Below are positions 8,167 through 51,732 of a stretch of 64,000 nt of DNA, in pieces. The DNA is from Mycteria americana (lineage: Eukaryota; Chordata; Aves; Ciconiiformes; Ciconiidae): the NCBI RefSeq assembly GCF_035582795.1, contig NW_027445436.1, forward strand, positions 5,082,770-5,146,769. Direction: 5' to 3'. The notes beneath the pieces were generated by a model. That model did no database searches. It saw only the letters and a list, made by a program, of their open reading frames with translations, and was not told the origin of the DNA. Every line of letters starts with the position of its first letter. Positions within the stretch are counted from its first letter, which is position 1. Position numbers and translations under genes: made by a program.

Positions 8167-8252
8167 TCACAGAATCACAGAATCATATAGGTTGGAAAAG
8201 ACCTTTAAGATCATCGAGTCCAACCATAAACCTAACACTGCCAAAACCACCA

Positions 8253-11227: not shown

Positions 11228-11283
11228 ATCGCCCCTCAGCTTCTCTCGGGCAAGCCTGATATTATCCCCCTCCCTCTTCGAGT

Positions 11284-15515: not shown

Positions 15516-15549
15516 TTTTTTGTGTCAAAACCCCTAATGCCACTTGCTG

Positions 15550-16500: not shown

Positions 16501-16510
16501 GGCTGAGCTC

Positions 16511-17729
16511 TGTTGCGTTAAGAGTTACTGGCGCGTAGGAGTCTGAGGAGTGGCTGGGGGGGGGGAACCCTCCCGTTGAGTAACAAGGTTCAGACAGGAC
16601 CCCCTTGCTTTCTAAACTCCTTCTCAGAGAGGAGTCTAGGTGCGGCTAAGTCCAGTCCTAGTCTCAGACTTGGTCAATGGTTATTTTCTAAGGACTGTAT
16701 ATGCAGCCATTCATCAGAGTTAAGGCGACAGCGTTAATTTAAACGCGCTGCACCCCCAGTCTAGTCATGTTGCATGAACTATCATGGCCACACTTAAAGA
16801 GTCTGGTTGTGTTCAATAACTACCACGGCTAGATCAATGAAGAGTGCAGTTTATTAAAGCAACAGATACACAGATTCTTTGGATTACCGGTGATAAATTT
16901 ACTGTTTGCAAAGCACATGCAAATACCAAGAATATGAGTAACACTGCCGGCTACAAACACGTTAAAAAGTTAATAAAGCAACTCTAGAGAGATTTCTAAG
17001 TTTCCCGGGGAGACACTTGGAATAACCAAGTGTTCGAATCTTACCCAAAGGTGTCCCGATTGGGGGGAAGAGAGGCTCAGCCCATCGACTGATCCCAGAG
17101 GTCAGAGTGGTACGCGATGGTGTCTTCCCTAACATTCTCTTTCTCTTAAGCCATTTTATACTATCTTTCACCTTTCGGGTGGAGCTTGAGTGACTCTAGT
17201 CATACATACCTTTGTTTAGGATTGGTGTAAAGTTTTCTCGCTTTGCTTTTAAAGGTATAGGCTAGGAAAAATTCAAAGCGCAAGCTCAGTGAGGGATGGT
17301 CGCACCTTGGAGGTGGGTAGCTTTTGGGATGGAGGTGTGTTTTGGTATTATAATGATGTTATAATGAGCAAAGTTCATCAAAGGACAGCATTTTGTCAGA
17401 AACATGTTGTTGTCAGAAACAGTGTTGGCCCAGGATAGCAAATGTGCAGCTTACTGGTCACACACAATACCTTTGAGTTCCCATTTAATTGCAGAGCCTG
17501 GCCGCGGCGTCTCCACACTGCTCCACCCTCCGAGCAGTACCTTCTTAGAGTCAGTACGCCAAGTTCCCCTGGCATCACCGACGTCTAAGGTTACAGGCCT
17601 AGGGAACTTCCATGGAATGGCCTTGCATGTCAGCTGCATTCCACCCGGGAATCTTCTTCAATGCTGTACCTTACCTAAAAGTGTGAATATAAGTTTAATT
17701 TCTAAGTCACCTCCAGCAATTATCCCACA
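16511..17729 (-). mobile_element. 1.2-kb solo LTR inserted in element A pol
   Basis: A 1,219-bp insert with TG...CA ends. On the minus strand it starts TGTGGGATAATTGCTGGAGG and ends TTAACGCAACA. It is flanked by a perfect 5-bp target duplication AGCTC (16506-16510 and 17730-17734) and interrupts the protease-to-RT frame. About 120 bp (around 16570-16690) are shared with the D-family LTRs (compare 24930-25050), including an imperfect palindrome CTCCTTCTCAGAGAGGAG. The rest is unlike any other LTR here. Confidence 0.85.
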
Positions 17730-17734
17730 AGCTC

Positions 17735-18175
17735 CTGGATTCAGTTCAGTCTTTACCAGGGTCGCATTCTTCGCTCGTCCAGGTATCTTCAATGCCCATA
17801 CCAGAGGTGTGACCACATTCAGTCCTTCCTCTGGAATATTCATTTCTTCATTAGGATCTCTCTCAGTTAACAAACATATCTGGGCTTTCCAGGCAGTCTC
17901 TGGAGGAATATGCAACTGAACAGAGTGTTCAAAAAAGGTTAGTTGTGCATTCAGTTTACAAAGTAAATCCTGTCCAAGCATTGGTAAGGGGCATTCTGGC
18001 ATATAAATGAATTCATGAGTTAATTTAGTATTTCCAATTGAACATTCCATCGGTTGTAAAAATGGCCTTAAAGTCTTTTTCCCTGTTGCACCAACAACGC
18101 TTATTTTAGTTCTACTTAAGGGTCCCCTACAGCTAGTTACTACAGAATGTGTGGCTCTGCTATCAATTAAAAAAA
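17735..18175 (-). pseudogene. Element A protease and PR-RT linker
   Basis: On the minus strand the protease region begins in VPVKLGNEIIDF, is shifted at an A/T run near 18165, and continues through MECSIGNTKLTHEFIYMPEC and GQDLLCKLNAQLTF to about 17735. The active-site triad in the second frame reads DSR rather than DSG or DTG, so catalysis is lost. The reading is cut by the LTR at 17729 and resumes at 16500. Confidence 0.75.
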
Positions 18176-19153
18176 TCTATTATTTCATTCCCCAGCTTGA
18201 CTGGAACCAGAGGATCGGCTGGGGAAACTTTATATACCTTATATGCGATTGATAATAACTGTGAGATTGTCATGACATCTGCACCCTCTTCCTTTTGTAA
18301 TTTCTTTCTTATATCTGCTGCCGCTTGACCAATAAACAGCACGTTAAATAACTTTGAATTACTATCATCTTCTGGATCCAGATCTGTCCATTTTCGAGCT
18401 ACTTCACACAGTCTCTCATAGAAGGCTAACGGGGTTTCCTTATCCCCCTGCTTTACTTCATATAGTTTAGATAAATTCTTAGGCTTTTGTACTCCATGTT
18501 GAATCCCAAACAAAACTAACTTCTGATATTCCTTTACCCTCTGTAATCCCTCACTTGTGTTTGGATCCCACTCCAGATCCTCTTTTGGGAGGTACATATT
18601 GGCATTAGGCACCCCCCCTGTTGTTGGATCAGTCCCTCTCTAGCCTTCTCTAAAATCGTTCTTCTCTCCCCAGCGGTAAACAAATATTCTAGGAGAGCCT
18701 GTACATCTCCCCAGTTAGGATTAGGAGTCATCATTACAGTTTTCACAGTACTATACATTCCTTCTGGATTGTTTCAGTTCCATACAACAACTTTTTCCCT
18801 TTTTCTCTTTTAGCACATATATTCCAATCTGATGTTTAGAATCCACTAAGCCACATTTCTTCCTAACATCCCAATCATTTCTTAATGCAAAAAAACATAT
18901 CCACCTAAGGTATTTCATCCCATTTTTCAGTTCTCCGACAAAACAACATTAATTGCAATATAGTGTTATATTTCAAGGATCCATTCTCAGGCCATTTTTC
19001 ACCATCTTCCAATTGATATTGTGGCCACCATTGATTACAATATCGTTTTAGCTTATTTTTAGTCATGGGATCCCCCCCAAATTTCTTCCAATTCTTCAGG
19101 ATGCATCCTAGAGGAGAGCAAAGGGGTGCCTCCTGGGAAGCAGCAGTGCCCAT
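18176..19153 (-). pseudogene. Element A gag (matrix and capsid; nucleocapsid deleted)
   Basis: The start codon at 19153 (minus) opens MGTAASQEAPLCSPLGCI, a myristoylation-type N-terminus, followed by the matrix (WPQYQLEDGEKWPENGS). After stops, the capsid C-terminal half is open at 18163-18612 (LYEVKQGDKETPLAFYERLC, LFIGQAAADIRKKL, the major homology-like region). The capsid end SIAYKVY is joined directly to KVSPADPLVPV of the protease. Element B has about 325 bp encoding an Arg/Gly-rich nucleocapsid and CCHC knuckle at that place, so packaging function was lost. Confidence 0.85.
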
Positions 19154-19551
19154 ATCGGTACCGAAAAAGAATTTCCTAACCCAACGTTTCATACACAAAC
19201 CAAAACGAGGGACGTCTCCCTTCATTACCCAAAACAACGTGTAGAAACAAAATTATGCTACTGCCGCGTATCTTTCCTGATACGCCTTATGCAGAGCCCA
19301 AAACGAACCATATGTTACCAAATGCTACCTGCTTCCCGACAGATCTTGCCCCTACCCCCTTTTTCCCATATTCCAAAAAAACCACCCCATCCTCTTTTCA
19401 GTAGCATTGCACCGTTGTGTTTCTTACTGCCCGACTGCAGGAGAGGAGCTGAAGGAGTCCCCGATCAACGGGTCGGTGCACGCTGGAGTCCACTCAGGTC
19501 TCTTCTCCCTGTCGGATGCAGCAAGACGAACCGGGCAAGGCTGTCAGCGCA

Positions 19552-19569
19552 GTCCCATCTGGGTCGCCA
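19552..19569 (-). other. Primer-binding site of element A
   Basis: TGGCGACCCAGATGGGAC on the minus strand, four bases after the LTR end. Elements B (51733) and C (57066) have the same pattern, TGGC then a variable part then CAGATGGGAC. The primer tRNA was not determined; an Arg-type tRNA is possible. Confidence 0.7.
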
Positions 19570-19573
19570 AAAC

Positions 19574-20085
19574 TGTTATCCCACAAGCGTGGGGTCGTTT
19601 AACCGGTGTGCAAGACGCCAATATGCACACAGAGCAGAGTATTTTTATTGCATGTTTGCGCAAAGATGGGTGCTAGGTGGTTATTCCACAAAGCTAACAC
19701 ACTATACTAAAGAACTACCGCACATTTATCTTGTTACATGATTAGTAAAAACCCACCCAAATTTATGTTTATTGTTTAGCAATTACTACTCCGTTTGTCA
19801 TTGGTTAGTTCTATGTAAATTAGCACGCATGCTCCTTGCAGGTGTGGGGGGGCAAGTCTTTTCAGTCCTGTATTGAGTCGGTGGTCGCGATCTCCCCCTT
19901 GCCGCCTTTACCTTTTCCCTAGTTACCGCAGTTTTTTCCTGACTTCATGTTTCTTCGGCACTCCCCCAGTCTTTGGTGCCTTCGAGGGCAGGATGTTCCC
20001 CTTTTATCAGTCTTTTAGTTCCTCTTCAAGGGCACAGTCATTAGCAAGGCATGCGCTGTTTATACAAAAAGTATCTTGTTTCACA
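19574..20085 (-). repeat. Element A upstream (5') LTR
   Basis: On the minus strand it starts TGTGAAACAAGATAC and ends GGGATAACA. It is similar to the element B LTR at 51282-51729 (for example GGGGGAGATCGCGACCACC, then GCATGCGTGCTAATTTACAT). It carries a poly-A signal GCAATAAAAATAC (minus). The 20085 end is inferred from the last CA before integrase-coding sequence of element D. Confidence 0.75.
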
Positions 20086-20778
20086 AGGCCTTTATGGCCT
20101 TTTTATGGCCCTTACATCAAAGGGAAAACTTTGTGGTCTACATGGCAAATTGACTATATTGGACCATTCAAATCCTCTGCGGGATATTGATACATACTCA
20201 CAGGAGTGGAAGTAGTCTCCGGCTTGCTTATGGCGACTAAATGTTGGAAAGCCGATGGGCGAAATACAGTGCGAGGGCTATCGTTTTGGTTCTCGAATCT
20301 ATCTACTCCTGATGTTATCCAAAGCGATACTGGCTCACACTTTTCATGTAAGGAAGTGCAAGACTGGGAAAAACCAGAGGGAATTAGATGGGTATTCCAC
20401 ACCCCATACTACCCCCAATCGAATGGGATGGTAGAAAGAGCTAATGGCTTGTTGAAAAGGAATCTCAAACCACACAAGGCTCAATGGGATACGAGACTTC
20501 CCAAAGTACTCCATCAATTAAATAATCGATACGGGCCTACTGGAAGGCCTATAAGCCAAGCATTCTTTGTAAAAACTGAGCTTAGCGCTCCACCTACTAG
20601 GAAAAGAGAATATCCGATGACATTACAGCCAGGACAGCCTGTGATGGTCAATTTACCATCCATCGGTACTGTGCCTATGGCTTTAATTAAACCTTGTGGC
20701 TCACTTGCTTGGGAAGCTACTGATAGCAGTGGTGCAAAACACAGAATTAGTGCACAATGGATTTTTCCTTCTTCTTAA
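20086..20778 (+). pseudogene. Element D integrase C-terminal half
   Basis: The plus-strand frame contains WQIDYIGPFKSS (first catalytic Asp), a stop, then VIQSDTGSHFSC (second Asp) and YYPQSNGMVERANGLLKRNL (catalytic Glu), followed by a C-terminal domain ending AQWIFPSS. It is truncated at 20086 against the LTR of element A, so the zinc domain and all upstream pol are missing. One stop interrupts the frame near 20188. Class assignment is uncertain. Confidence 0.85.
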
Positions 20779-20845
20779 TGGGGTAACCTGTTTGGACTCT
20801 CCCCACCGAAACAAGTCTCTATTTTCTCTTACAGCACCCCACAGG

Positions 20846-23046
20846 ATGTCAGACGGAAATGCTGTGTTCATGTTACTATTCCAAACCCTAACAATGCTGT
20901 TCCTCTTAGCCTGTGGTCAAAGAACCCTAGAGTGGCCATGGTCCCAAGCTCGTGTTAAGTACACTGGAAGTGTGGGGATACACTCTAGTAAGGGAGATTT
21001 AAAGCTTTCCACCGTGGTCATGCACGGAACTGAAACATACTTAGAAAACGAATGGAGCTGGGATAAAGATGAAGCTGATGATAAAGTTCTCTGACTTCGG
21101 GGAACGGCAGGGAAGGAAATTAAAATAGGATGCCGGATGATCAATGGGTCTACCCATGAGAAGGCACCTCAGATTTCTGTGTACAACATTACATCAAACC
21201 CAATAGCCAAAGATACAAGACTTTGCGCCTCTGAAAGATTGGACTGTTGGTACGATTTTACCTTAGTACAACCTGTTTTTGTAGCCTGCCTCTGGGCTCA
21301 CCATAGCGTGGGACTATCCTTTAAATTTAAAATAGACATTACTGAGCCTAGTACAACAACATCTGCCCTGACTGTAAAGGATAAGAAAATTCTATCCCCA
21401 CAGATTTCTGAAGTTGGACCATATGTGATCAAAAATACAGGCCAACAACAAGTGTTATTTAATCCATCATGGTCTCTTAAAACGAGTAGAACTACTGATG
21501 CAAAGTAATATCTCTGCAATCAAACCGACCTGTTCACCATTCCTAGGTACGTCCTATGCAGGATGGTTAGCATGGTTACATGGGCGAACCCTCACCTCTC
21601 CAAGACGAACAAGGAGAGATATGACCGGTATCATAGGGACAGGATTGGGAGTCTTAAATAGTATAGATGCCGAAGTACTCGTAAACAAACTGAGCACAAC
21701 AAGTGATTTAAACAAATTAGAACACCCATTGCGGTCTTCTCTATTAGCATTGGGAACTAACCAATGGCTCTTATCTGGTATATTACCTCAGTGGGAAAGA
21801 ATTAATGAAAGGGACCACCAACTGATTGTGGATGCACTTGGTGTAGCCCAAACCAATGTTTCTCTAGCTCTTAGTTGTATCCAAGCTCAACTGTGGATGC
21901 AATCTATGGTAGCAGCAATTATAAGAGAAGGTGAAGAGGGCACCTTACCCACTGAAATTTGAAAGGTAATTTGGGATAATGCAGCTAAATTTGAGAAAGA
22001 ATTCCAGTCCTGGTGGTATTTAGCCAATTTCACTTATGACCCCATCAACAATAAGGCCACAGCTTTTGTCTTAACAATACACAATGCTTCGGTATACACC
22101 ATATACCCAATCATTGCGTTAGGGTTAAATCACAATGGAACTATACTCTATCCATTAGAACATAGAGTGTGGGCCCAGCGAAACGGAAACAAATGGCAAA
22201 CTGTTGATGTTAATGCATGCGTTGTACGGGAACAACAAGGATTTATTTGTGAGAGTAACACCATCAAAGCCCAAGACATTTGTCTTGACACTGAACAAAA
22301 TGTTTGTCATTTTGAAGTACAACCAGATGAAGCCCCTGAAACTGTACTTGTATATATTGGAAAAGGATGTGTGTGTGTGTATGAGAACCCTTTGTGATTT
22401 TATATTCGTAGATAACGTTACTGTAGATACAAGCAATCGCTCAAATATTTGTGTTTGTAAGTTTACAAAAATTATGGGATGCGACTTCAATTATTCAGCT
22501 CCTGTTACGTCTTATCAATTGTTACAATCTAACTATACATTGAGTCAAGATTTATTGCCTACCCCCATCGGAATGAATCTTACATTGGTGAAGAAACTAC
22601 TACAACACGATGACCTGTGTCAACTGCTGGAATGCGTCCAAAACAATGGACACAAAACTCTGATAACCGTTCATCATGATGCAGAAGAGACACACCATGT
22701 CTTGGAAGGAGTGGAAGGACTTGGAAAGGATGGAGAACACCATTGGTGGGAAAATCTTCTTGGATGGTCACCGACAGCAACGGGACTGTTTAATCTTATG
22801 CTTCACCCAGTCGTGATTTTACTAACTCTAACTTTAATATGTCTATTGCTTATAATTATATTGTATATAAAGGTTTGGTACATGATAAAACAAATAACCC
22901 AACTTCAATCACCCAAAACATACAAATTAATGCATAAAAAATATCAGTGCTTCACTGTCTACTTACCATGGATCTATAAGCGCACAAACTATCAATATAC
23001 TATTTCTGGCACAGAGGCAAGAGGTGACCGTACCACCACTCTGTGA
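20846..23046 (+). pseudogene. Element D envelope gene, with stops
   Basis: It starts at ATG 20846, just after acceptor-like TTCTCTTACAG, as expected for a spliced env message. A hydrophobic leader follows (VFMLLFQTLTMLFLLACG). A furin-type site RRTRRD lies near 21605, then a helical TM region, a Cys-rich loop (about 22200-22460) and a C-terminal membrane anchor (VVILLTLTLICLLLIIILYI, about 22810-22870) with a short basic tail. Stops or frameshifts occur near 21092, 21507, 21960 and 22390. The length of about 730 codons is normal for an Env. Its role was membrane fusion at virus entry; the gene is disabled as it stands. Confidence 0.85.
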
Positions 23047-27130: not shown

Positions 27131-28302
27131 CACATCAGCCCCATGGGAGTATAAAGCTCTGGTGGACACCCGTGCACAGTGTAATCTCATGCCATCAGGT
27201 TACAAAGGGGCAGAATCCATCTGTATTTCTGGAGTGACAGGAGGATCCCAACAGTTGTCTGTATTGGAGGCTGAGGTAAGCCTAACTGGGAATGAGTGGC
27301 AAATGACCTATTTGAACTGGCCCGGAGGCCCCTTGTATCCTTGGCATAGACTACCTCAGGAGAGGGTACTTCAAAGACCCAAAAGGGTACCAGTGGGCTT
27401 TTGATATAGCTGCCTTGAGTACAGAGAAGATTAAACAGCTGTCTAGCTTGCCTTGTCTCTCAGAGGATCCTTCTGTTGTGGGGTTGCTGCGGGTTAAAGA
27501 ACAGCAGGTGCCAATTGCCACCATGACAGTGCACCGGCAACAATATCGCACCAACCCAGACTCCCTGGTTCCTATCCATAAGCTGATTCGATGACTGGAG
27601 AGCCAAGGAGTGATCAGCAAGACTCACTCACCATTTAATAGTTCCATACGGCCAGTGCAAAAGTCTGACGGTGGATGGAGGCTAACAGTGGAATATTGTG
27701 GCCTGAATGAAGTCACACTGCCGCTGAGTGCTGCTGTACTGGACATGCTAGAACTCCAATATGAACTGGAGTCATAGGCAGCCAAGCGGTAGGCCACAAC
27801 TGATATTGCCAATGCATTTTTGCTCTATCCCTTTGGCAGCAGAGTGCAGGCCACAGTTTGTTTTCACATGGAGGGGTGTCCAATACACCTGGAATCGACT
27901 GCCCCAGGGGTGGAAACACAGCCCTACCATTTGCCATGGACTGATATAGACTGCATTGGAACAGGGTGAAGCCTGAACACCTGCAATATATTGATGACAT
28001 CGTTGTGTGGGCCAACGCAGCGGAGGAAGTGTTTGAGAAAGGGAAAAGAAAAATCCAGATTCTTCTGAAAGCTGGTTTTGCCATAAAACAAAGTAAGGTC
28101 AAAGGACCTGCACAGGAGATCCAGTTTTTAGGAATAAAATGGCAAGGTGGGCGTCGTCATATCCCAATGGATATGATGAGTAAAATAACAGCTCCACCAA
28201 CTAACAAAAAAACCCCACAAGCTTTCTTAGGCGTTGTGGGTTTTTGGAGAATGCATATTCCAAATTACAGTCTGATCATAAGCCCTGTCTATCAAGACAC
28301 AG
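27131..28302 (+). pseudogene. Element L protease and reverse transcriptase
   Basis: The protease begins with LVDTRAQCNLMPSGYKGAES near 27155, where the active-site Gly is replaced (DTR). The RT follows, with IHKLIR-stop, ISKTHSPFNSSIRPVQKSDG, a degraded first catalytic segment (ATTDIANAFF), LPQGWKHSPTICHG and an intact YIDD (near 27990), then FLGIKWQGGRRHIPMD and FLGVVGFWRMHIPNYS. Stops occur near 27590, 27775 and 27790, and a frameshift near 27950. The frame is severed by CR1 at 28303 before RNase H. It is inactive. Confidence 0.85.
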
Positions 28303-29377
28303 AATCACAGAATGGTTGAGGTTGGAAGGGAGCTTTGGAGGTCATCTAGTCCAACCCCCCCTGCTCAAACAGTGCCATTTAGAGCAGGTTGCTCAGGACT
28401 GTGTCCAGACAGCTTTTTAATATCTCCAAGGAGGGGAACTCCACAACCTCCCTGGGAAACCTGCTTCACTGCTCAGTCACCCTCAACAGTAATAAAGTGT
28501 TTCCTGATGTTCAGGCGGAACCTCCTGTGTTTCCATTTGTGCCCATTGCCTCTTGTCCTGCCACTGGGCACCACTGAAAAGAGCCTGGCTCCTTCTTCTT
28601 TGCACCCTCCCTTCAGATATTTCTATAAGTTGATGAGATTCCCCCGAGCCTTCTCTTCTCTAGGCTAAACAGTCCCAGCTCTCTCAGCCTTTCCTTGTAT
28701 AACAGATGCTCCTCCTGTCCCTTAATCATCTTTGTGGCCCTTTGTTGGAATCCCTCCAGTATGTCCATGTCTCTTGTACTCAGGAGCACAGAACTGGACA
28801 CAGGACTCCAGGTGTGGCCTCACCAGTGCTGAGGAGAGGGGAAGGATCACCTCCCTCGACCTTCTGGCAATATTTTGCCTAATGCAGCCCAGGATACCAT
28901 TAGCCGCCTTTGCAGCAAGGGCACATTGCTGGCCAATGTTCAACCTGGTGTCCACCAGGACCCCCAGGTCCTTTTCTGCAAAGCTGCTTGCCAGCCAGGT
29001 GGCCCCCAGCATATATTGGTGCCTGGGGTTGTTCCTCCCCAGGTGCAGGACTTGACACTTCCCCTTGTTGAACTGCATGAGGTTCCTGTCAGCCCATTTC
29101 TCCAGCCTGTCCAGGTCCCTCTGGATGGCAGCATGACCCTCTGGTGTATCCACCACTCCTCCCATTTTTGGGTCATCAGCAAACTTGTTGAGGGTACACT
29201 CTGCCCCATCATCCAGATCATTAATGAAGATGTTGAACAGGATTGGACCCAGTGTTGACCCCTGGGGTATACCCCTACTTACTGGCCTCCAACTAGACTT
29301 TGTGTCACTGATCACCACCCTCTGGGCCCAGCCGTTCAGACAGTTTTCCACCCATCTCACTGTCTGCTTATGCAGCC
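28303..29377 (-). mobile_element. CR1 LINE fragment (RT end and 3' UTR)
   Basis: The 3' tail on the plus strand is CACAGAATCACAGAATGG, then GTTGAGGTTGGAAGGGAGC, a subfamily distinct from 8167-11905. The minus frame 28722-29360 holds [13 protein letters not shown] sequence, [20 protein letters not shown] and an intact FADD, then the C-terminal segments. It is 5'-truncated at about 29377 and inserted at the broken end of element L pol. Confidence 0.92.
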
Positions 29378-29415
29378 CATAAAAAATGTGTTTGTAAATG
29401 TTTCCAGGGTTGTCA

Positions 29416-29612
29416 TGGACAAGTTGGAAGTGCCATCAAAGCAAGAGGTCTCGGGACTTTCTTTTAAGGCTTTTTCTTTGAATATAAGCAAGAGAGCCAT
29501 GTCACGCCCCCAGAGGGAAGGTCCGCCCCAGCCCTGTAAAAGACAAAGGAAGTGGGGTGCCAGACAACAGTCTGACCAGGACAGGAAGAAGAAAAAGAAC
29601 AAGCCAGGCTGA
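29416..29612 (+). CDS. Small basic protein frame upstream of capsid
   Basis: A 65-residue frame from ATG 29416 with a strongly basic C-terminus ([20 protein letters not shown]). It precedes the capsid-like start at 29690 by about 80 bases. Basic core or condensing proteins are common among adenovirus-related and Polinton-like elements, but no family was recognised; this is a position-based guess. Confidence 0.3.
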
Positions 29613-29689
29613 ACTGTGCAAAAGAAACAGAAATCCCAGAGAAAGAGGTCCCGTTCTACCGCTAGAAAAGGAAATATATTTTAAAACGG

Positions 29690-30110
29690 ATGGTTTCCGT
29701 TCATGGCTGTTCAGAAGAATGTACCAAATTCGAGCTGGATTTGTTTGAAGTGTCCCTGACACAGACCAGCAGTGACAAGAGCTGGGCAGCAGGAAGCAGT
29801 CATGCTGGATGGTGTTGGTAATCAGGGGTTTAGACAATGCTTGGCTCTGACGGCCCAGAGTAGGAGGATTGAACTATTGGGACCTCTCCACAGCGATCTG
29901 TTCTTTCAGTGCAAGCTTTTGTTGAATGGTGTGGATGTAAAAATTAAGCTGAATCCACAACAAAGTTAGCTTTTGTTTGATGAGCTCCCCAGCAGCAGGA
30001 GCCTGCAAGCTGGTTATTACCTATTCCTCACTGGTTTTGAAGAAGGTGCAGTGGTGCCTGGAGTGCCTCTGGGGCACGCTAAGGCATTACTCATAGTGGG
30101 CATGGAAGTG
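29690..30110 (+). pseudogene. Major capsid protein remnant (Polinton/adintovirus-like)
   Basis: Three pieces in different frames. (1) 29690-29821, from ATG, includes CTKFELDLFEVSLTQTSS, the typical N-terminal DLF...TQTS signature, and ends in a stop. (2) About 29862-29960: RRIELLGPLHSDLFFQCKLL, then LNGVDVKIKL. (3) 29971-30092: FCLMSSPAAGACK, then LVLKKVQ and, after another shift, VPLGHAKALL. The middle of the capsid gene (normally several hundred codons in all) is mostly deleted between pieces 1 and 2. The assignment rests on the order of these motifs, which fits the family also annotated as F54H12.2-like. Confidence 0.72.
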
Positions 30111-30114
30111 AATT

Positions 30115-30515
30115 ATTACAGAACCCAGGCCAGCAATGGTCTTCCTGGTTTTCAAGATAAGTTGACGAGTGAGTTGCTGCCATATGAGCACATTATGGAA
30201 TTTGTGTCATCAGGGCCCGAACCCTACAGCTACTTGCAGTCTGGTGGAAAGTGTTGCTTAAAGGCTAAAGTTATCACTCTAAATACAAAAAAAAGAGAAA
30301 AGATCAATTTTCAGGCACTGAGGGATCTTGGCTTGGATTATGGCATAAACCCAGACAGTGATGACCCTAAAAAGATCATGACAGAGCAGTGCTCTATTTT
30401 CAGGAACAAGCAGAAGTGGGCAACAGAAACCAGGCCCCTCTGGAAGATGTAGAAGGTGGTCTATGACAAAAGAGTACTGACTAAAAAATTTAAAAGCCTC
30501 CCCTACAGTTTTTGA
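30115..30515 (+). pseudogene. Protein-primed DNA polymerase B C-terminus
   Basis: The frame 29973-30452 runs from the capsid remnant into LTSELLPYEHIMEFVSSGPE, then PYSYLQSGGKCCLKAKVITL and a low-conservation stretch. After a TAG at 30450 the same frame gives VVYDKRVLTKKFKSLPYSF and a TGA near 30513. The EFVS-GP-x2-Y-Y and YDKRVL...PYGF-like blocks are the C-terminal signature of Polinton/adintovirus PolB. The exonuclease and palm motifs (upstream in a full gene) are absent. The direct join to capsid sequence implies a deletion or rearrangement near 30115-30150. Confidence 0.68.
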
Positions 30516-30523
30516 TCCTGGGC

Positions 30524-30958
30524 ATGTGCTGGAAGCACCCTTTTTCTGCTGTTCTGATGGGGCCTAGCAACTTTGGGAACAGTTATTTTGTAAAATGTCT
30601 TTTGGAGAATGCTTGCTGTCCGTTATGCTTGAGAATATTGTGTGGTGTTACAGTTGTTGGCAACCACTGAGCATCAGGAAATGCTCTGTAAATGTCCTTT
30701 TATCAAATTTGTGGAGGACTTACCTGTGAGTGATAACCATTGATTTTCCCCCTAATAAAGTAAATATGGTTGTGATCGATGATTTGATGAACTCCGCTTG
30801 TGAGAGTGATGAAATTGAGAAAGCTTTTACTAAGTATGTGCTTCACAGGAACATGATGTCCCAGTGTCTGAAGAGTAACCTTTCCCACCTGGAGCTGTTG
30901 ATCCAATCCTCCCCCCGGCAGAGGAAAGCAATACTCTGCACTGCTTCTGATGACATGA
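30524..30958 (+). pseudogene. FtsK/HerA-type packaging ATPase remnant
   Basis: It starts MCWKHPFSAVLMGPSNFGNS followed by YFVKCLLEN (30524-30610), the position and neighbourhood of a Walker A loop in which the invariant Lys is now Asn. After several stops another frame gives NKVNMVVIDDLMNSA (Walker B, 30766-30795) and AFTKYVLHRNMMSQCL (about 30822-30870). The domain order agrees with the A32-like genome packaging ATPase of Polintons and adintoviruses. The end is lost at the LTR beginning at 30959. Confidence 0.68.
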
Positions 30959-31963
30959 TGTGCTGGGTTGACCCTGGCTGGACACCAGGTGCCCACCAAA
31001 GCTGCTCTATTACTCCCCCTCCTCAGCTGGACAGGGGAGAGAAAATATAACGAACGGCTTGTGTGTCAAGATAAGGACAGGGAGATCACTCAGCAATTAC
31101 TATCATGGGCAAAACAGGCTCGACTTGGGGAAATTAATTTAATTTATTACCAATTAACGACAGAGTAGGGTAATGAGAAAATAAAAACTAAATCTTAAAA
31201 CACCTTCCCCCCACCCCTCCCTTCTTCCTGGGCCTTAACTTTACTCCCTAATTCTCTACCTCCTCCCCCCAAGCAGCACAGGGGGACGGGGAATGGGGGT
31301 TGCGGTCAGTTCATCACACATTGTTTCTGCCACTCCTTCCTCAGGGGGAGGACTCCTCACACTCTTCCCCTGCTGCAGCATGGGGTCCCTCCCATGGGAG
31401 ACAGTCCTCCATGAACTTCTCCAACGTGAGTCCTTCCCACAGGCTGCATTTCTTCACGAACTGCTCCAGCGTAGGTCCTTTCCATGGGGTCACAGCCTCC
31501 TTCGGGCACATCTACCTGCTCCAGCTTGGGGTCCTCCATGGACTGCAGGTGGATATCTGCTTCACTGTTAACCTCCATGGGCTGCAGGGGGACAGCCTGC
31601 CTCACCATGGTCTTCACCATGGGCTGCAGGGGAATATGCTCTGGCGCCTGGAGCACCTCCTCCCCCTCCTTCTTCACTGACCTTGGTGTCTGCAGAGTTG
31701 TTTCTCTGACATATTCTCACTCCTCTCTCCGGCTGCAGTTGCTGTTGCACAGCAACTTTTTCCCCTTCTTAAATATGTTATTACAGAGGCGCTACCACCA
31801 TTGCTGATTGGCTCGGCCTTGGCCAGCGGCGGGTCCGTCTTGGAGCCAGCTGGTATTGGACATAAGACCCTATTGGACATAGGTGAAGCTTCTAGCAGCT
31901 TCTCACAGAAGCCACCCCTGTAGCCCCCCCACTACCAAAACCTTGCCATGCAAACCCAATACA
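30959..31963 (-). mobile_element. 1.0-kb LTR, solo
   Basis: TG...CA ends. On the minus strand it starts TGTATTGGGTTTGCATGG and ends in AACCCAGCACA. It shares its ends and several blocks (for example AAATTAATTTAATTTATTAC) with the shorter relative at 40698-41082. It has a coding-free interior with Pro/Leu-rich chance frames. No target duplication could be matched (CATGA against GAGAG). Confidence 0.75.
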
Positions 31964-34231
31964 GAGAGAAACAACTATGCAGACTGAAGGAAAAAAAAAG
32001 AAGCTGGGGGGGTATGGATTTTCCACCCCAAGATTCCTACTTATGCTAAAATATCGTAATTAAATCTTCTCATGCTATGGTCTAAATAACGAAAATGAAT
32101 TCATCGTTTAATCTTTTTGTTGTGTAATAGAATAGAAAAAAAATTCCTGTGAGGAGGAAGGGACTTCAAGTTTTGATTTCAGATATTCTAGAATATAATT
32201 TTCTTGTTTCAGACTCCTACATGCGTTCGTTTATCTTGTTACCCATAATGCTATGATATGCACCACCAAATTATTCTGAATTGTTTTAATCTTTATGTTA
32301 AGGGAACTAAAAAAATAGCCAGTTGTAAAATAGGTGCTATACCTTATTGAACTTACATGGCTATATATAGCTGAAGTCTTTTCACAGTACCTTAATGAAG
32401 AACATTATTTTTTTATTAGTCTGATGCCATGTGTCTGCAAATATGAAGAAAATAGTTACCATAAAAATGCTTTTGAATTTAGGTCTGTTGCTGCAGATAG
32501 AATAATGGCCATGCTTTCTTAAATTCAGTAAAGTTGGTTTATAGTCACATTTCCATGTTGCCTGATCAATGCTATACTACTCCTTTAGCCTGCTTCCATC
32601 CTCCCCTAGTCCTTGGATTAAGCAAAGCAAATTGTTCATCCATGCATGAGTCAGTCTGGTATCTCTTGGCTGTCTTTCTTGCAACTACAGAACTTCATCA
32701 CACAAAACCTTATTTTTTGAGCTTCATCATGAGTGCTTTTGCTCTGTGAAACAAACAATGATCATGAGACAATGTTTGGCTTTGATCTCAATTCCTATTT
32801 ATTCAACATTTGAATGGTTATTAAAATTGTCCATTAGTTTTATCAGTTTTGCATTGTTCTCCAACATAGCTCTAGCTATTTCAGAGAAACTGGGATTTAC
32901 ATGCTCATCTGGCTATGTCCATCTCTGTGTGTATGGGGCTTGTAATCTGCATATGCTGAGGAACTTTCTGATTGAGGAGGTGTTTCAGAATGGGATAATT
33001 CATTACTCAAAGAAACACAGCTATAAAAATATAAAGAACAAGGACCTCTGGAACAGCTTAGCTAATGTAAATTCCCATCTGCTATTTTAATTAGTATATC
33101 ATACAGTAGTAAACATGAGTTTGGGGATAAATGAATTTTCTAGACAGATAGCAAGCCCAAAGCCCAAGTCCAGTTTAAAACCTGTGTATGTTTTTGGTTG
33201 GTTGGTTGGTGTTTTTAAATATAGATGGTACACAAATTCTCTTTTTGAAAGCAGATTTCACCTCATGACATTGTTGCAGTTTGTGTCAACATAAAGCTGG
33301 TCAGGAGGTAGTCATTATAAACAGATTTGCTGTTATGTATTTCTTGATGTCTCAAAGACATTAAAAGATAAAAAAAATTGAGAGGCAGGTTGGCTCAGAC
33401 ATCTGACAGGAGAGCATTCCAGAATGGAAAGTCACATTGGCTGCAACTACTTCCTACTGAAATCAGCACCTTGGAGGGTTAGGCTATAAGCACGGAGCTG
33501 AGACAATGAATAGATCCACTTTGCTGTATATTTGATAGTATGAACTGAAATATTAGGAGCGAAAATCTTCATTAAATAGATACAGCAGAGATGGCATGAA
33601 TATCCTATAGACTAGTAGAGTAGTAATAATTTCAACAGAAGTTTTAATTCAGTGGGAACCATTGTGGTACACCAGGCAGTGGATGATTCCCATTTTGGAG
33701 AAAATAGCAGTTGATGCAAGTAGTTGCTGTAAGATTGTCCATCCTTTGAATTTATTATATCATTCTGCTAGAAAAAATATCAAAGCATGGAGTGGAAACA
33801 AGGAAACTGCCATAGTCTAGCTCTTAGGTCAAAACCTACAAATAACATCTCTGGAATAATAATTTAGTTTGATAGAATGAAACTCATGTAAGACCTTCAT
33901 GGATAACAGAAAGACACTGGGCCATAATGGGTTACTTCAAAGCTAATGTAGTTGCAAACATTTTAACTCATCTGACATGCCTGAGACACCCTGAGTATAT
34001 CTCCACTTAATTGAAGTTTCTGTAGTGGGTGCCCAAATTTGCTGGATTACACATATAATAATGTGGACCTATTTATTTTCACAAGAAGGTAGGCGATTTC
34101 ACAGTGAAAACCCATTTTTTTTTCAATAGCCTAATCAGTAAGAGGAAATCCATCAATATATTTTGTTTGTGGATGAAGTAACCTAATAATAATGTGTAAC
34201 TAAAGTAACCTAATAATAATAACATCTCCTT
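31964..34231. other. Unique AT-rich sequence, no gene seen
   Basis: No domain-bearing frame, RNA gene or repeat family recognised over about 2.3 kb. Frames such as 32746-33090 lack any recognisable motif. Confidence 0.5.
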
Positions 34232-34612
34232 TCAGGTAACTTTTTTCTTTTGCAGTTTATCCACAAAGGGTAATGTCCTCTCTTCCCTTTTGGCTTGGTA
34301 TTCTCTTAACTGCCCCAGCGCTAGAATTGCATCACAAACTGCTGTCCCCTGGGCACCTCCCAGGATCGATATGATGTTCCCTTTAAGACAAAAAGGTGCC
34401 CTGACTAAGAGTCTGGATTGCATTCCTGAGGTAAATACCTTTGAGTCGGGGCTAGCGAAGGCAGGGTTGTAAACACCTTGTTGAATAGCCAATTCTCTCA
34501 AATATTGCCCCCCCGCTCCCACATCTATATGCTTCCATGTCACCATTCTGTCATTCCAATCAAATGGGGAGGGGTGTTGTGTTTTCACTGACCCCCACAA
34601 CCATTCCCAAGT
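34232..34612 (-). CDS. Unrecognised 142-aa frame, possibly retroviral gag
   Basis: A minus-strand open frame of over 120 residues upstream of the CR1 tail (its first residues fall in that tail). Segments include WEWLWGSVKTQHPSPFDWND, VGAGGQYLRELAIQQGVYNP and KGNIISILGGAQGTAVCDAI. The Trp-rich start and the helix-rich middle recall a capsid, but no major homology region is evident. It ends in a basic KLQKKK. No start codon is convincing and both ends look cut, so it is probably a fragment of an unrecognised mobile element rather than a host gene. Confidence 0.3.
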   Translation of the reverse strand, partial: TWEWLWGSVKTQHPSPFDWNDRMVTWKHIDVGAGGQYLRELAIQQGVYNPAFASPDSKVFTSGMQSRLLVRAPFCLKGNIISILGGAQGTAVCDAILALGQLREYQAKREERTLPFVDKLQKKKVT

Positions 34613-34696
34613 CACAGAATCACAGAATGGTTGAGGTTGGAAGGGAGCTTTGGAGGTCATCTAGTCAAACCCCCCTGCTCAAACAGTGCCATTTAG
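34613..34696 (-). mobile_element. CR1 3' tail fragment
   Basis: CACAGAATCACAGAATGGTT on the plus strand, then the same subfamily sequence as 28303-28380. Only about 84 bp; it stops abruptly where D-family LTR sequence begins. Confidence 0.85.
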
Positions 34697-34878
34697 TGTC
34701 TCCCTGACAGTTTTGTCTGACCCTGTCCTCTATGCAGTAAATAATCAATTGTACCTTGCCACTGAATCTTGTTAAACCACTGTCGCACTGAACTTTGTTA
34801 ACTCCCTGTTCTATACCAATAAAGTATATTTTTGCTTCTCTCTTACAAGTGAAGTGCACTCTCACTCCATCCGCGACA
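34697..34878 (+). mobile_element. D-family LTR 3' fragment
   Basis: The last 182 bp of the LTR at 23082-23798 (GTCTCCCTGACAG ... CATCCGCGACA). Its outer end is the true LTR terminus, abutting the older CR1; its inner end is broken against the CR1 tail. Confidence 0.9.
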
Positions 34879-35606
34879 CCCATGAGAACAAGGGCTAGCG
34901 ATCGTGAGACTTCTCCCAGCTGCTTATAGAATATTTCATCTGCCTCTTCATCCTGGTTGGGTGGTCCGTAACAGACTCCCACCATGATAGCTGCCATGTT
35001 GGCCTTTCCCCTGATTCTTACGCATAAACACTCAACCCTTTCATCATCATTGTCAAGCTCTAGACAGTCAAAACACTCCCTAACATACAGGGCTACCCCA
35101 CTGCCTCTCCTTCCTTGCCTATCCCTTCTGAAGAGTTTATAGCCATCCATTGCAGCACTCCACTTGTGTGAGTCATCCCACCATGTTTCTGTGATTGCAA
35201 CTATATCATAGTTTTCCTGCTGCACAATGGCTTCCAGCTCCTCCTGTTTGTCGTCCATGCTGCATGCATTAGTGTAGATGCACTTCAGTTGGGCTATTGA
35301 TCCTGCCACCTTTTTTGGGGGAGAAGCCCTAATTCCTATGTGACTGTTGTCAGGCGCTTCCGTGGTTTCTAACACATCAACAACCCTTTTGTCTTTGCTG
35401 CCACATGGATCTTCATCCCCTACCTCCACTGAGATAGCTAGGGTGCTGCACGCATTAGTACAGGGATGTTTCAAATATGCTCCAGTGCACTCAGCACATC
35501 GTGGAGAAGACCGAAGGATCTCGCTAGCACACCATCCCTCAAACATTGGCCTGCCACCCCCAGGCTTATCTCTAGTGAGCCTGGTTTTATCCCTTTCCCC
35601 CTTCAA
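34879..35606 (-). pseudogene. Older CR1 ORF2 N-terminus (endonuclease), truncated
   Basis: The frame 34665-35606 (minus) carries the LINE endonuclease start: [51 protein letters not shown], then SLALVLMG, where the element is cut at 34879. The last 70 residues of the frame read through the LTR fragment and CR1 tail and are artefacts of fusion. Compared with the younger copy at 36092 it differs at many positions, so it is an older or different subfamily. Confidence 0.88.
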
Positions 35607-35639
35607 ATCTAGTTTAAAGCTCTTTCAGTGAGCCCTGCT

Positions 35640-36091
35640 AACTCCTGCACAAGGATCCTTTTCCCCCTTTGAGACAGGTGTACCCCATCTGTTGCCAGCA
35701 GGCCTGGTGTCGTGTAGACCGACCCATGATCAAAAAACCCCTAAAATTTTGCCGGTGACACCAGTCTCAGAGACAGTTATTGATCTGCTGGCTCTTCCTG
35801 TTTCTTCCCTCATCATTCCCTGCAACTGGGAGGATAGAGGAGAACACTACTTGTGCTCCTGATCCCTGGTCCCAGGGCCCTGAAGTCTCTTTTGATTGCT
35901 CTTGGACTTCTTATTGCAACTTCATCACTGCCTACATGAAAAAGCAATAATGGATAATAGTCTGAGGGCTGTACCAGGGTAGGAAGTTTCCTCGTCACAT
36001 CTTTAACCCAGGTCCCAGGGAGGCAGCAGACTTCCCTAAGAAGTGGGTCCGGTCGGCAAATTGGGCCTTCTGTTCCCCTCAGGAGAGAGTC
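35640..36091 (-). pseudogene. Older CR1 ORF1 esterase region
   Basis: The minus frame 35813-36127 gives SLLRGTEGPICRPDPLLREV, LPGTWVKDVTRKL and LLLFHVGSDEVAIRSPRAIK, as in the ORF1 at 11284. It is broken by a frameshift near 35860 and cut at 36091 by the younger CR1. The missing GDS residues continue at 38808 beyond the insertion. Confidence 0.88.
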
Positions 36092-36205
36092 CTGGATGGC
36101 TATAAACTCTTCAGGAGGGATAGGCAAGGCAGGAGAGGTGGTGGGGTAGCCCTGTACGTCAGGGAGAGTCTGGATAGTTTAGAGCTCGATGATGGTGATG
36201 ATAGG

Positions 36206-37861
36206 GTGGAGTGTCTATGGGTAAGAATCAGGGGGAAGGCCAACAAGGCAGATATTGTGGTGGGAGTCTGTTACAGACCACCCAACCAGGATGAGGAGAC
36301 TGACGAACTATTCTATAAGCAGCTGGGAGAAGCCTCACGATCACTAGCCCTTGTTCTTGTGGGGGACTTCAACCTGCCAGATGTCTCCTGGAAATACAAT
36401 ACAGCAGAGAGGAAACAGTCTAGGAGGTTCCTAGAGCGTGTGGCAGATGATAACTTCCTGACACAGCTGGTGAGTGAGCCAATGAGGGAAGGTGCCCTGC
36501 TGGACCTGTTGTTCACGAACAGAGAAGGACTTGTGAGCCATGTGATGGTTGGAGGCTGTCTTGGGCAGAGTGATCACAAAATGAGAGAGTTTTTGATACG
36601 TGGTGAAGCAGCGAGGGGGGTCAGCAAAACTGCCACCTTAGACTTCCGGAGGGCAGACTTTGGCCTGTTTAGGAGACTGGTCGAGAGAGTCCCCTGGGAG
36701 GCAGCCCTTATGGGCAAAGGAGTCCAGGAAGGCTGGACATTCTTTAAGGAGGAAGTCCTAAAGGCACAAGAGCAGGCTGTCCCCAGGTGCCGAAAGACGA
36801 GCCGGCGGGGAAGAAGACCGGCCTGGCTGACTAGAGAGCTCTGGCTCGAACTGAGGAGAAAGAGGAGAGTCTATGACCTCTGGAAGAAGGGGCGGGCAAC
36901 TCAGGAGGACTACAAAGGTGTAGCAAGGTTGTGCAGGGAGAAAATTAGAAGGGCCAAAGCTGAGCTAGAGCTCAATCTGGCTGCTGCTGTAAAAGACAAC
37001 AAAAAACACTTCTTCAAATACATTAGCAGCAAAAGGAGAGCTAAGGAGAATCTCCGGCCCCTAGTAGATGGGGGAGGGAACACAGTGACCAAGGATGAGG
37101 AAAAGGCTGAGGTACTTAATGCCTTCTTTGCCTCAGTCTTTAATAGTAAGACCAATTGTTCTCTGGGTACCCAGCCCCCGGAGTTGGAAGATAGGGACGG
37201 GGACCAGAATGGAGCCCCCATAATCCAGGGGGAGATGGTTAGTGACCTGCTGCACCACTTAGACACTCACAAGTCTATGGGGCCTGATGAGATCCACCCG
37301 AGAGTACTGAAGGAACTGGCAGATGTGCTCACCAAGCCCCTTTCCATCATTTACCAGCAGTCCTGGCTAACTGGGGAGGCCCCTGCTGACTGGAGATTAG
37401 TGAATGTGACACCCATCTTCAAGAAGGGCCGGAAGGAGGACCCGGGGAACTACAGGCCTGTCAGCCTGACCTTGGTGCCGGGGAAGCTGATGGAGCAGGT
37501 CATCCTGAGTGCCATCACACGGCATGTAGAGAATAACCAAGGGATCAAGCCCAGCCAGCATGGGTTCAGGAAAGGCAGGTCCTACTTGACCAACCTGATC
37601 TCCTTCTACGACAAGGTGACCCGCCTAGTAGATGAGGAGAAGGCTGTGGATGTTGTCTATCTAGACTTCAGTAAAGCCTTTGACACAGTTTCCCACAGCA
37701 TTCTCCTGGAGAACCTGGCTGCTCATGGCTTGGACGGGCGTACTCTTCTCTGGGTAAAGAACTGGCTGGATGGCCGGGCCCAAAGAGTGGTGGTGAATGG
37801 AGTTTACTCCAGTTGGCGGCCGGTCACAAGCGGTGTTCCCCAGGGCTCTGTGCTGGGGTGA
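36206..37861 (+). pseudogene. Younger CR1 ORF2: endonuclease end and RT
   Basis: A 551-residue frame with the second half of the endonuclease ([31 protein letters not shown]) and the RT ([58 protein letters not shown]). It ends at a TGA at 37859 where the relative at 9035 reads on (CCAG/GTGAG). The open length and good motifs indicate a relatively recent insertion. Confidence 0.93.
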
Positions 37862-38725
37862 GTTCTGTTTAATATCTGTATCAATGATCTGGAAAAAGGG
37901 ATCGAGTGCACCCTCAGTAAGTTTGCAGATGACACCAAGTTGTGTGGGAGTGTTGATCTGCTGGAGGGTAGGAAGGCTCTGCAGAGGGACCTGGACAGGC
38001 TGGATGGATGGGCCGAGGTCAATTGTATGAGGTTTAACAAGGCCAAGTGCAAGGTCCTGCACTTGGGCCACAGCAACCCCATGCAACGCTACAGGCTTGG
38101 GGAAGAGTGGCTGGAAAGCTGCCAGGCAGAGAAGGACCTGGGGGTGTTGGTTGACAGCCGCCTGAATATGAGCCAGCAGTGTGCCCAGGTGGCCAAGAAA
38201 GCCAATGGCATCCTGGCTTGTATCAAAAATAGCGTGGCCAGCAGGACTAGGGAAGTGATTGTGCCTCTGTACTCGGCACTGGTGAGGCCGTACCTTGAAT
38301 ACTGTGTTCGGTTTTGGGCCCCCCACTACAAGAGAGACATTGAGGTGCTGGAGCATGTCCAGAGAAGGGCAACGAAGCTGGTGAAGGGTCTGGAGCAGAA
38401 GTCTTATGAGGAGTGGCTGAGGGAACTGGGGTTGTTTAGCCTGGAGAAAAGGAGGCTGAGGGGAGACCTTATCGCTCTCTACAACTACCTGAAAGGAGGT
38501 TGTAGAGAGGTGGGGGTTGGTCTCTTCTCCCAGGTAACAAGTGATAGGACAAGAGGAAATGGCCTCAAGTTGCGCCAGGGGAGGTTTAGACTGGATATTA
38601 GGAAATGTTACATCACTGAAAGGGTTATCAAGCATTGGAACAGGCTGCCCCAGGAAGTGGTTGAGTCGCCATCCCTGGAGCTATTTAAAGGACGTTTGGA
38701 TGAGGTGCTTAGGGACATGGTATAG
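37862..38725 (+). pseudogene. Younger CR1 ORF2: palm end and C-terminus
   Basis: Continues the RT after the stop: the FADDTK block near 37924-37942, then the frame 37940-38725 with [54 protein letters not shown] and the terminal LDEVLRDMV. The FADD box is intact at DNA level. The 3' UTR is only about 80 bp, as in other CR1s. Confidence 0.92.
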
Positions 38726-38807
38726 TGGTGGTCTTGGTAGTGTTAGGTTTACGGTTGGACTTGATGATCTTAAAGGTCTTTTCCAACCTATACGATTCTG
38801 TGATTCT

Positions 38808-39498
38808 GAGTCTCCTATGACAATAACCCATCTTTTTTTCTTTATGGAAGCGGTTTTGATGCAGGGCGTAGGCCGACTTAACCTTGGCGACACCTCCAAC
38901 CTAGATGAACCATCATCCTCGTCATTGTTCGGTTCCACTTAGAGCTTCATAGCTATTATGCAGGCGCACCTGGGAAGGTGAGGTAGTCATGGAGGAGATG
39001 CGCCTGCTGTGCCAGGCAGGAACTTGTTGCCATTTCCCCCTACCCCTTAAGTCACTGCATTCTACCAGGTGAAGAGAGGATAGGGAATCCTCCATATCAT
39101 GCATTCTGTCTGCCTGACAGGTCTGTCCCAGGGAAGGTAGGGTGTGGTTCCAGTAGTCTATCTCTCTCTCAGACTCCCTGATACTCCTCAACCTACTCAC
39201 CTCCTCCCAGAGCTCTGTCACTAAGGTGAGGAGCTCCTCTACCTGAGCACACCTCCCACAGGTGTGCTCACTACTGCCTTTTGGTACTGGCATAAGAGTA
39301 GGGCACACCCTGCAGCCTGACACCTGGGTGGCAGCATGTTCCCATCAGAGCTCTGTCTGGGAAGCTGTGTCAGCCGTGGTGGGTGCAGGGTTTAGAGAGG
39401 CCATGGCCTTCTGCCGGGTGGATACCATTGCTCCCTGGTCAAGCTGGCAGAGCTACAGCACCCTTCCTGTGCACTCTTCCGCACAAACTGCCGTGCCA
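38808..39498 (-). pseudogene. Older CR1 ORF1 N-terminal half
   Basis: Continuation of the CR1 at 34879-36091. On the minus strand KKKRWVIVIGDS (the esterase nucleophile block) ends at 38808. The frame 38922-39323 holds a Cys-rich, coiled-coil N-terminus (SEHTCGRCAQVEELLTLVTE, then LWEEVSRLRSIRESEREI). The N-terminal half of CR1 ORF1 binds nucleic acid and oligomerises. A frameshift near 38930 separates the two halves. The 5' end abuts the LTR at about 39499. Confidence 0.82.
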
Positions 39499-40697: not shown

Positions 40698-41082
40698 TGT
40701 GGTGGGCTAGACGGCCACCCAGCTGCTCTCTCACTCCCCCTTCTCAACAGGACAGGAGGAGAAAATAAGATGAAAAAGCTCATGGGTTAAGATAAAGACA
40801 GGAAGATCACTTACCAATTACTGTCACAGGCAAAACAGACTTGACCTGGGGAAAATTAATTTTTTCTCATGTCTCTCCTGTGTGGTGTTTGTGCCCTTTC
40901 TTAAATATTCACAGAGGTACCACCAACTTCACTCATTGGCTTAACTTTGACCTGCTGTGGGGCCATTACTGAGCTGGCTGGAACTGGCTGTGCCTGGCAC
41001 AGGACAGCCCCTGACCTCTTCTCACAGAGGCCACCCCTGCAGCCCCACTGCTACCAAAGCCTTGCCACATACACCCAATACA
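40698..41082 (-). mobile_element. Solo LTR with perfect target duplication
   Basis: 385 bp with TG...CA ends and flanking GCAAG on both sides (40693-40697 and 41083-41087). It is an internally shortened relative of 30959-31963 (shared ends and GATAAAGACAGGAAGATCAC). The 5-bp duplication is informative for the family's integrase class. Confidence 0.88.
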
Positions 41083-42510
41083 GCAAGTTAGGCACTACTC
41101 CTTTGTCTATAAAACATGTTTTCTGAACTAGTTTTACTTCCTTTACTGCATTCTAAAATCACTCATCATACAAAATCCTATCTCCTGTGTTTTTATGTGC
41201 CTGGGAAAGATTTCTAATTCAAAAAGAAATGCAAGGAAAGATTCAAATCATCTCTGTAAATCCACAGTTAGACCATGTCCAATAAGCCATGATTTTCAGA
41301 ACTCAAAAAAAGAATAACCATGTTCTAAAAATCCAGTTAGCAGTCTTCTATACTTAATTAAATATTATTTCTTTAATAATAGAAAGAAAAAAGTCTTGGG
41401 AGAAATGGGGGCACACAGCATTCAAGTTTATGATTCTGCAAGTACTTGCAAAAAGGATCAGTGAAAGAATTATAACAAGGTGTCTGCCAGTTGCCATCAA
41501 ATCAGGAACATAGCCCCGATGGAACTGTATAGGTCTTCCTCAGAAATTTAAGTTTCCTCATTTTCATTTATTAGCCACATTGGAAAACATTTGAATGGAT
41601 ATATGAAAAGGGATATATATCGAGAGCTGATTTATTAATAATTGCAAAAAAATGACATTAATTTTAAATATGCAAAGTCAAGTATTCAAAAAGCTAGGGA
41701 AATAAAAGAATTAAGGTCATAAATGCAGTCTGAATGTGTCCCTGGGTGAGCACTTGCTATAATATAGGTAAACTGCACAATTTTTAGTGTAGACAAGCCA
41801 GATCTTTACAGGTTGTTTTGTGGTTTACTTTTATGGATGCAGGAGTTATTACATCTCCACAAGTTCCTACCTTTGATTTCCAGGGTAGTTCACACTGCAA
41901 CTAAGAGTGTATATCCAGCATAGATCATCTTGATCAGGGAAGCCAGTTTACAGCATTTTCTGTTTCACACCACCATTTGCTGCCCTCTCAGTTGTAACAC
42001 TAAAACTGTCTGTGGGGCTATGCTGTAAACTGGGTCACTAATCAAAGCAAATAATCATTTTCTTGTCAGCTTAGTGCAGTGATCCCATCTACAGCAATGA
42101 CCCACAAACATTTGTATCAACACAGAAGGGGGAGTCAAATTGTGACATGATGTGGGAAAGGGCAGCCAGGGTCAGGAGGGAGAAAGAGGTTGCAAACTTT
42201 TTAAGACAGACTTGCCACTGGAGATAACATACCATGAAGCTACATCCCATTTTTCTGCTTACCCTTGGAAACAAAATACTGAACAGGGATTGAGAGACTG
42301 ACTGTATCAATTTAACTTGGTAGCATCCTACTGCCACTCTGTGCTCTTCTTTCACAGATATAAATGACTGCAGATAGAGCGTGGACAGTTTGCATTTACA
42401 CAAGGTCCTCTTTATAGCACGTCAGGCTTGCAAAAAAGGCCTTAAATTTAATTTTGTTCCTTATAATAACGCTTCGTACAATCAGAAAAATACAGAGTGG
42501 TTTTAATATA
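41083..42510. other. Unique sequence, no gene seen
   Basis: AT-rich; the frame at 42089-42403 (minus) has no domain. No repeat family recognised. Confidence 0.5.
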
Positions 42511-42677
42511 GAAGGGAAGGGAAGGGAAGGGAAGGGAAGGGAAGGGAAGGGAAGGGAAGGGAAGGGAAGGGAAGGGAAGGGAAGGGAAGGGAAGGGAAGG
42601 GAAGGGAAGGGAAGGGAAGGGAAGGGAAGGGAAGGGAAGGGAAGGGAAGGGAAGGGAAGGGAAGGGAAGGGAAGGGA
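42511..42677. repeat. (AAGGG)n pentanucleotide repeat
   Basis: About 33 uninterrupted GAAGG/AAGGG units (167 bp), all purine on the plus strand. The long lysine/glycine/arginine-type frames across it are artefacts of the repeat. It abuts the truncated LTR that follows, in which relatives have an A/G-rich run (AAAAAGGGGGGGGGAG). Confidence 0.98.
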
Positions 42678-51281: not shown

Positions 51282-51729
51282 TGTGGCTGTCAAAAGCAGA
51301 AGTGTAATTGATGTATTACTAGCCCAGTTAGTAAACCATGAAGAACTGCTTGGATCTGCCAAAAAAGTAGGAAACTAGGGGAAAGGTAATTCCGGCAGGG
51401 GGAGATCACGACCACCAACTCACGGACCACCTACCCCAATTATACCACCGACTCAAATGATGAGGTTGAAGAAGAACAACTAAGCATGCGTACTAATTTA
51501 CATGCTGGGTGAAGAGATTTTAACCAATCATTTAATAGAAGAATACTGCATATGTATTAGGAAGTTGGATACGTTAATGCTTTGTGTATAAATGTTAATT
51601 TGAAAGCTTGGTGTGCTGTCTTGGGACAGGCACCCATATCTGCGCAAATATGCAATAAAATACCTCTGCTCTGTGTGTATATTGGCATTTTGCACACCGG
51701 GTAAATGAACCCTGATTTTTGGGACAACA
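51282..51729 (+). repeat. Element B 5' LTR
   Basis: Ends TTTTTGGGACAACA at 51729. The start (TGTGGCTGTCAAAAG, 51282) is the best TG candidate but is not firm. Poly-A signal AATAAAA at 51654, then a GT-rich stretch. Similar to 19574-20085 (minus). Confidence 0.75.
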
Positions 51730-51732
51730 TTT

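Follow-up and report, generated by a model that had tools for sequence, protein, structure and literature searches.

A dead, internally deleted locus in Mycteria americana, very probably a remnant of an endogenous Maverick/Polinton-type element

A living Maverick is copied by a protein-primed PolB, has its DNA loaded into a double-jelly-roll capsid by a packaging ATPase, and enters the host genome by means of a retrovirus-like integrase. Terminal inverted repeats, an adenovirus-like protease and the minor capsid, PW, PM and PZ genes are further features of vertebrate Mavericks. In these elements, as described in section 7 of PMC8097293, the first module consists of PolB and, next to it on the same strand, the ATPase, and the capsid module usually lies on the strand opposite PolB; the same section describes the Xenopus tropicalis Maverick with both modules on one strand. 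Adintoviruses are defined, in the account given by PMC11071296, by a PolB with an N-terminal OTU-like domain, a recognizable hexon, and an integrase with a chromodomain.

The bird Mavericks described in PMC8097293 are defective, with no intact copy reported there; two kiwi loci keep seven of the eight core genes, and orthologous loci are found in palaeognaths and penguins (section 9). According to PMC4992247, chicken chromosomes 2 and Z both carry Polinton remnants, which are conserved in turkey; integrase and capsid frames are present on chromosome 2 and PolB frames on both chromosomes. The human fossils on chromosomes 7 and 8 contain early stops and frameshifts and are described as common to placental mammals in PMC9683012, which calls the extinction of Mavericks in birds and mammals a mystery. 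Dated copies bear on the question of why Mavericks died out in these two groups. The locus described here is one more copy, and Maverick relics are already known from many birds. An earlier note on this DNA had stated that such elements are seldom reported from birds, which is too strong, since defective Mavericks have been published from several bird groups.

We analyzed a stretch of 64,000 nucleotides from Mycteria americana (hereafter the window), in which the region at about 29.7-30.96 kb is, with high probability, what remains of an endogenous element of the Maverick/Polinton type, now dead and internally deleted (Table 1). Every motif string quoted in the earlier note can be read from the + strand of 29378-30958. 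That note proposed traces of three hallmark genes; those of the PolB-like and ATPase-like genes hold, whereas the capsid-like motifs are there but no relatives of them were found.

Compared with the bird Mavericks as described in PMC8097293 and PMC4992247, the relic is alike in its broken genes and in being an old insertion, and is set apart by having capsid-like motifs on the PolB strand. Unlike the kiwi loci, as described, it consists of scraps of two or three genes within 1.4 kb. It resembles the human chromosome 7 and 8 fossils in being degraded, in lacking terminal inverted repeats and in carrying a premature stop and frame breaks, but the arrangement of hits in those fossils fits the commonest Maverick organization, as PMC9683012 presents it. 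With the Xenopus tropicalis element it would share, description against description and provided that the capsid assignment is right, the placement of both modules on one strand, although that element is portrayed in PMC8097293 as intact and the relic is a decayed scrap.

Table 1. Features of the relic and its immediate neighbors, in window coordinates.
Feature	Position	Strand	Evidence
Old CR1-type LINE fragment, left neighbor	28295-29385 (right edge approximate)	-	RVT_1 and DNA identity
Possible N-terminal major-capsid motif piece, FELDLFEVSLTQTSS	29729-29773	+	read directly
Possible middle major-capsid part, in two frames	29874-29982	+	read directly
Possible further capsid motif, LGHAKALL	30069-30092	+	read directly
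Putative PolB C-terminus relic	30141-30512	+	matches of P0001 and P0002 (tblastn, 174 and 102 bits)
Putative packaging-ATPase relic	30518-30613 (frame +2), 30616-30867 (frame +1)	+	P0012 and P0008 by tblastn
Retroviral LTR-like repeat, ends the ATPase relic	30958-31965 (edges within a few bases)		parts of a second, shorter copy

The PolB-like part overlaps an open stretch of 160 aa at 29970-30449 (+), in which EFVSSGPEPYSY is located. When this stretch was used to search 5.8 billion predicted proteins, two of 23 candidates matched. P0001 aligns with 59% of the query at 73% identity (E 2.3e-35), and P0002 with 64% of it at 55% identity (E 2.0e-21). The search takes only proteins of 0.55-1.75 times the query length, which places full-length relatives beyond its reach. 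A stop codon at 30450-30452 interrupts the PolB-like part, and the motif run YDKRVL...LPYSF (+) reaches its end at 30512. The length of the open stretch is in itself not unusual, as an open frame of at least 160 aa was present in 43 of 500 shuffles. Going by motifs of the family, we take the letters of 30141-30512 to fit a PolB C-terminus, and it is plausible that they represent the PolB of a Polinton.

The ATPase-like part directly follows. A query of 30730-31047 matched all 11 of its 11 candidates, with the ATPase part covered by P0008 and P0012 only; the other nine (P0003-P0007, P0009-P0011 and P0013) were dropped, as their matches lie wholly or for the most part in the LTR-like tail that follows about 30958. 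Over 30518-30867, P0012 and P0008 are collinear with the DNA in more than one frame. The motif KHPFSAVLMGPSNFGNS is located in 30518-30613 (+) and MVVIDDLM...FTKYVLHRNMM in 30745-30867 (+), and between these lies a third-frame scrap at 30687-30740 whose likeness to P0012 was judged by eye only. Motifs are again the source of the name, together with the order of the two parts: these letters presumably fit a packaging ATPase, plausibly that of a Polinton.

In tblastn against the window, P0012 scored 63.9 bits, plus 48.5 bits for its first part, and P0008 scored 59.3 bits. The best scores among 500 dinucleotide shuffles of 29386-30957 were 24.3 bits for P0001, 23.9 for P0002, 21.2 for P0008 and 28.9 for P0012, where 180, 183, 187 and 274 of the shuffles, respectively, gave any BLAST match. 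Because the tblastn scores of the window lie far above those of the shuffles, we conclude that both the PolB-like and the ATPase-like part descend from protein-coding genes, of which they are relics. At the level of sequence comparison, the results support 30141-30867 as a decayed relic of two adjoining genes with homologues in public assemblies, although P0001, P0002, P0008 and P0012 could even originate from one species, the window's own.

Beyond the end of its PolB part, P0001 closes with residues that align to 30433-30564 of the window in a different frame (E 5.4e-7). Since the end of P0001 thus matches the start of the ATPase part, the PolB-ATPase order appears to be present in a second copy, and the match suggests that P0001 shows the same adjacency.

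Searches against named references gave no relatives. No credible profile match to the relic was obtained from Pfam and PHROGs (eight pieces each) or NCBIfam (three pieces), although these collections may contain no Maverick models sensitive enough for pieces of this length. The same was true of P0001, P0002, P0008 and P0012 against Pfam, of P0001, P0002 and P0012 against NCBIfam, and of two frames neighboring the relic that were given to Pfam. The weak matches to FAM193_C (E 0.033), phrog_9334 (E 0.1) and PPR_2 (E 0.11) are unrelated, and those to FAM193_C and PPR_2 were taken as chance. No solved PolB, ATPase or double-jelly-roll capsid in the PDB matched any of the pieces tried; a match of P0012 to a PPR protein (E 5.8e-5, 27 residues, with no stretch passing alone) and one of alignment A1 to a PDZ protein (E 1.4) were likewise taken as chance. 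Two protein scans and six DNA-pattern scans of IMG/VR, as well as a search of phage records and a scan of GTDB contigs, revealed no relative; six stretches from one of the IMG/VR DNA-pattern scans were checked and found to be chance matches. AlphaFold models built on the PolB and ATPase alignments had mean pLDDT values of 33 and 34 and were of no use for fold comparison.

With named references unmatched, the family assignment depends solely on motifs and the order of the genes, and the relic could instead derive from another group of DNA viruses that encode a packaging ATPase and a PolB of the protein-primed kind. We consider this very unlikely, because the Maverick module as described in PMC8097293 has exactly this arrangement, PolB with the ATPase directly after it on the same strand, and because birds are Maverick hosts in the accounts of both PMC8097293 and PMC4992247.

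The capsid-like motifs are a less straightforward case. Within the middle part, LLGPLHSDLFF...NGVDVKIKL occupies 29874-29951 and FCLM 29971-29982 (both +), and LGHAKALL stands shortly upstream of the PolB piece and in its open frame. The assignment of 29729-30092 to a major capsid gene is made from motifs, and it is plausible that these are scraps of a Polinton capsid gene. A predicted-protein search with the capsid-like part returned one candidate and no match at E values up to 10, no PDB sequence matched the capsid-like piece, and nine IMG/VR pattern matches to this part were checked and proved to be chance rather than relatives. Directly ahead of the motifs is a Lys/Arg-rich stretch at 29585-29690 (+), with 11 of 37 residues being Lys or Arg in the frame that has no stops; another frame, interrupted by two stops, has 14 of 37. 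It was considered as part of a gene ahead of the capsid gene, and nothing is claimed for it; in a listing of the window's most basic stop-free places, the top eight (13-16 Lys/Arg per 35 residues) are all elsewhere.

It may be asked whether only the PolB and ATPase pieces come from a Maverick, with the upstream motifs arising by chance and the remnant being the end of a single module. The lack of relatives of the capsid pieces among predicted proteins, in IMG/VR and in the PDB would fit this, as would the placement of the capsid gene on the other strand in most vertebrate Mavericks, as PMC8097293 describes them. However, several motifs occur in the order of the capsid protein within about 365 bp, with some 50 bp left between the last of them and the PolB piece, and in our judgement a run of this kind by chance seems unlikely. 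We regard the chance origin as unlikely on the whole and continue to treat the motifs as probable capsid scraps.

The capsid-like, PolB-like and ATPase-like pieces all lie on the + strand, and if the capsid assignment is right, the usual layout with modules on opposite strands is not found. The relatives give no guidance on this layout, as P0002 starts just three residues ahead of the shared part, and P0001 later still. A same-strand layout would follow from one deletion in a same-strand element, from an inversion and a deletion in a usual one, or from a wrong capsid call. It is improbable that a capsid-PolB-ATPase order on one strand was ancestral to bird Mavericks, or that a short deleted derivative, in which a capsid scrap was joined to the PolB end and the ATPase, was copied around bird genomes. 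The relic raises the question of whether the modules of bird Mavericks were divided between the two strands in the usual way.

Several parts of a complete element are missing from the locus. Both ends of the element are gone, as are large parts of the PolB-like and ATPase-like genes, and the relic contains neither the PolB N-terminus nor an integrase. No inverted repeats of at least 25 bp (seed 11) were found in 28300-32650; the failure to find terminal inverted repeats is expected where a fragment has lost both ends. No protease of the adenovirus-like type was found among 18 ORFs near the relic that were given to Pfam. Pfam rve matches among 28 ORFs of the window fell at 20191-20775 and 59572-61254. 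The latter ORF is retroviral, since RNase H and an MLV-type integrase C-terminus are also present, and the former is taken as retroviral.

The PolB-like and ATPase-like parts are homologous to other relics and adjacent to each other, they are broken, and other elements neighbor them. The gene names, the capsid part, a single ancestral insertion and the absence of function are inferred. The ancestral element would have copied itself by its PolB, packaged its DNA by the ATPase into the capsid, and entered the genome by an integrase, leaving in the present locus a PolB end, a large share of the ATPase gene and, probably, capsid-gene scraps. No intact gene remains, as the PolB stop, the ATPase frame change (with further ones seen by eye), the large deletions and the flanking CR1 and LTR at the two sides indicate, and most likely the relic has no function at present.

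To the left, RVT_1 is matched in 28722-29435 (-) with E 6.1e-13, and 28295-29354 has 68-70% DNA identity to longer CR1 copies found elsewhere in the window. Beyond the CR1 fragment are retroviral pol-like pieces, with an RVT_1 match in 27945-28316 (E 2.6e-5) that is below the curated cut-off. On the right, parts of a second, shorter copy of the LTR-like repeat are present at 40701-41086. The translated start of the repeat matches proteins of several assemblies, including a Morphnus guianensis (eagle) gene model; this match and the CR1 elements would be in keeping with a bird host. Inspection by eye gave no clear target-site duplication.

About 1 kb past the LTR and about 2 kb from the relic, 32935-33066 (+) is an exon-sized match to ERAP-type aminopeptidases, with Pfam Peptidase_M1 at E 6.7e-9 and PDB matches to ERAP2 (E 6.6e-13), ERAP1 (E 1.1e-12) and LNPEP (E 2.1e-6). 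A GT at 33067 follows the match, and no AG directly precedes it. When the window was scanned by regex for a few hallmark motifs of M1 peptidases, no further exon of this kind came up. The match may represent an exon in decay, or one exon of a gene that repeats have stretched; we take the ERAP/LNPEP genes to lie on the Z chromosome in chicken. This exon-like match provides a handle for locating the same insertion in other birds.

The proximity of this host exon, together with the exapted Polinton fragments proposed in human in the account of PMC9004415, could be read as a sign that the relic has been retained as host sequence, either regulatory or as a short domesticated protein. This is extremely unlikely, as the stop and the frame changes break both the PolB-like and the ATPase-like pieces, the 160-aa open frame is within chance (43/500 shuffles), and repeats flank the relic on both sides.

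Other repeats are abundant in the window. Long CR1 LINE copies at 5792-11937 (-) and 34232-38808 contain frames of 754 and 631 aa that are open for reverse transcriptase and endonuclease, and two of these long copies are 95% identical in DNA over 2.7 kb. The regions 14151-23046 and 51600-63100 hold several copies that resemble endogenous retroviruses and have long pol frames, and the ORF at 59572-61254 (+) is open for 561 aa, comprising RNase H, the integrase core and the MLV-type integrase C-terminus. Finally, 42511-42677 is a perfect pentanucleotide array (GAAGG, 33.4 copies, 100% matches).
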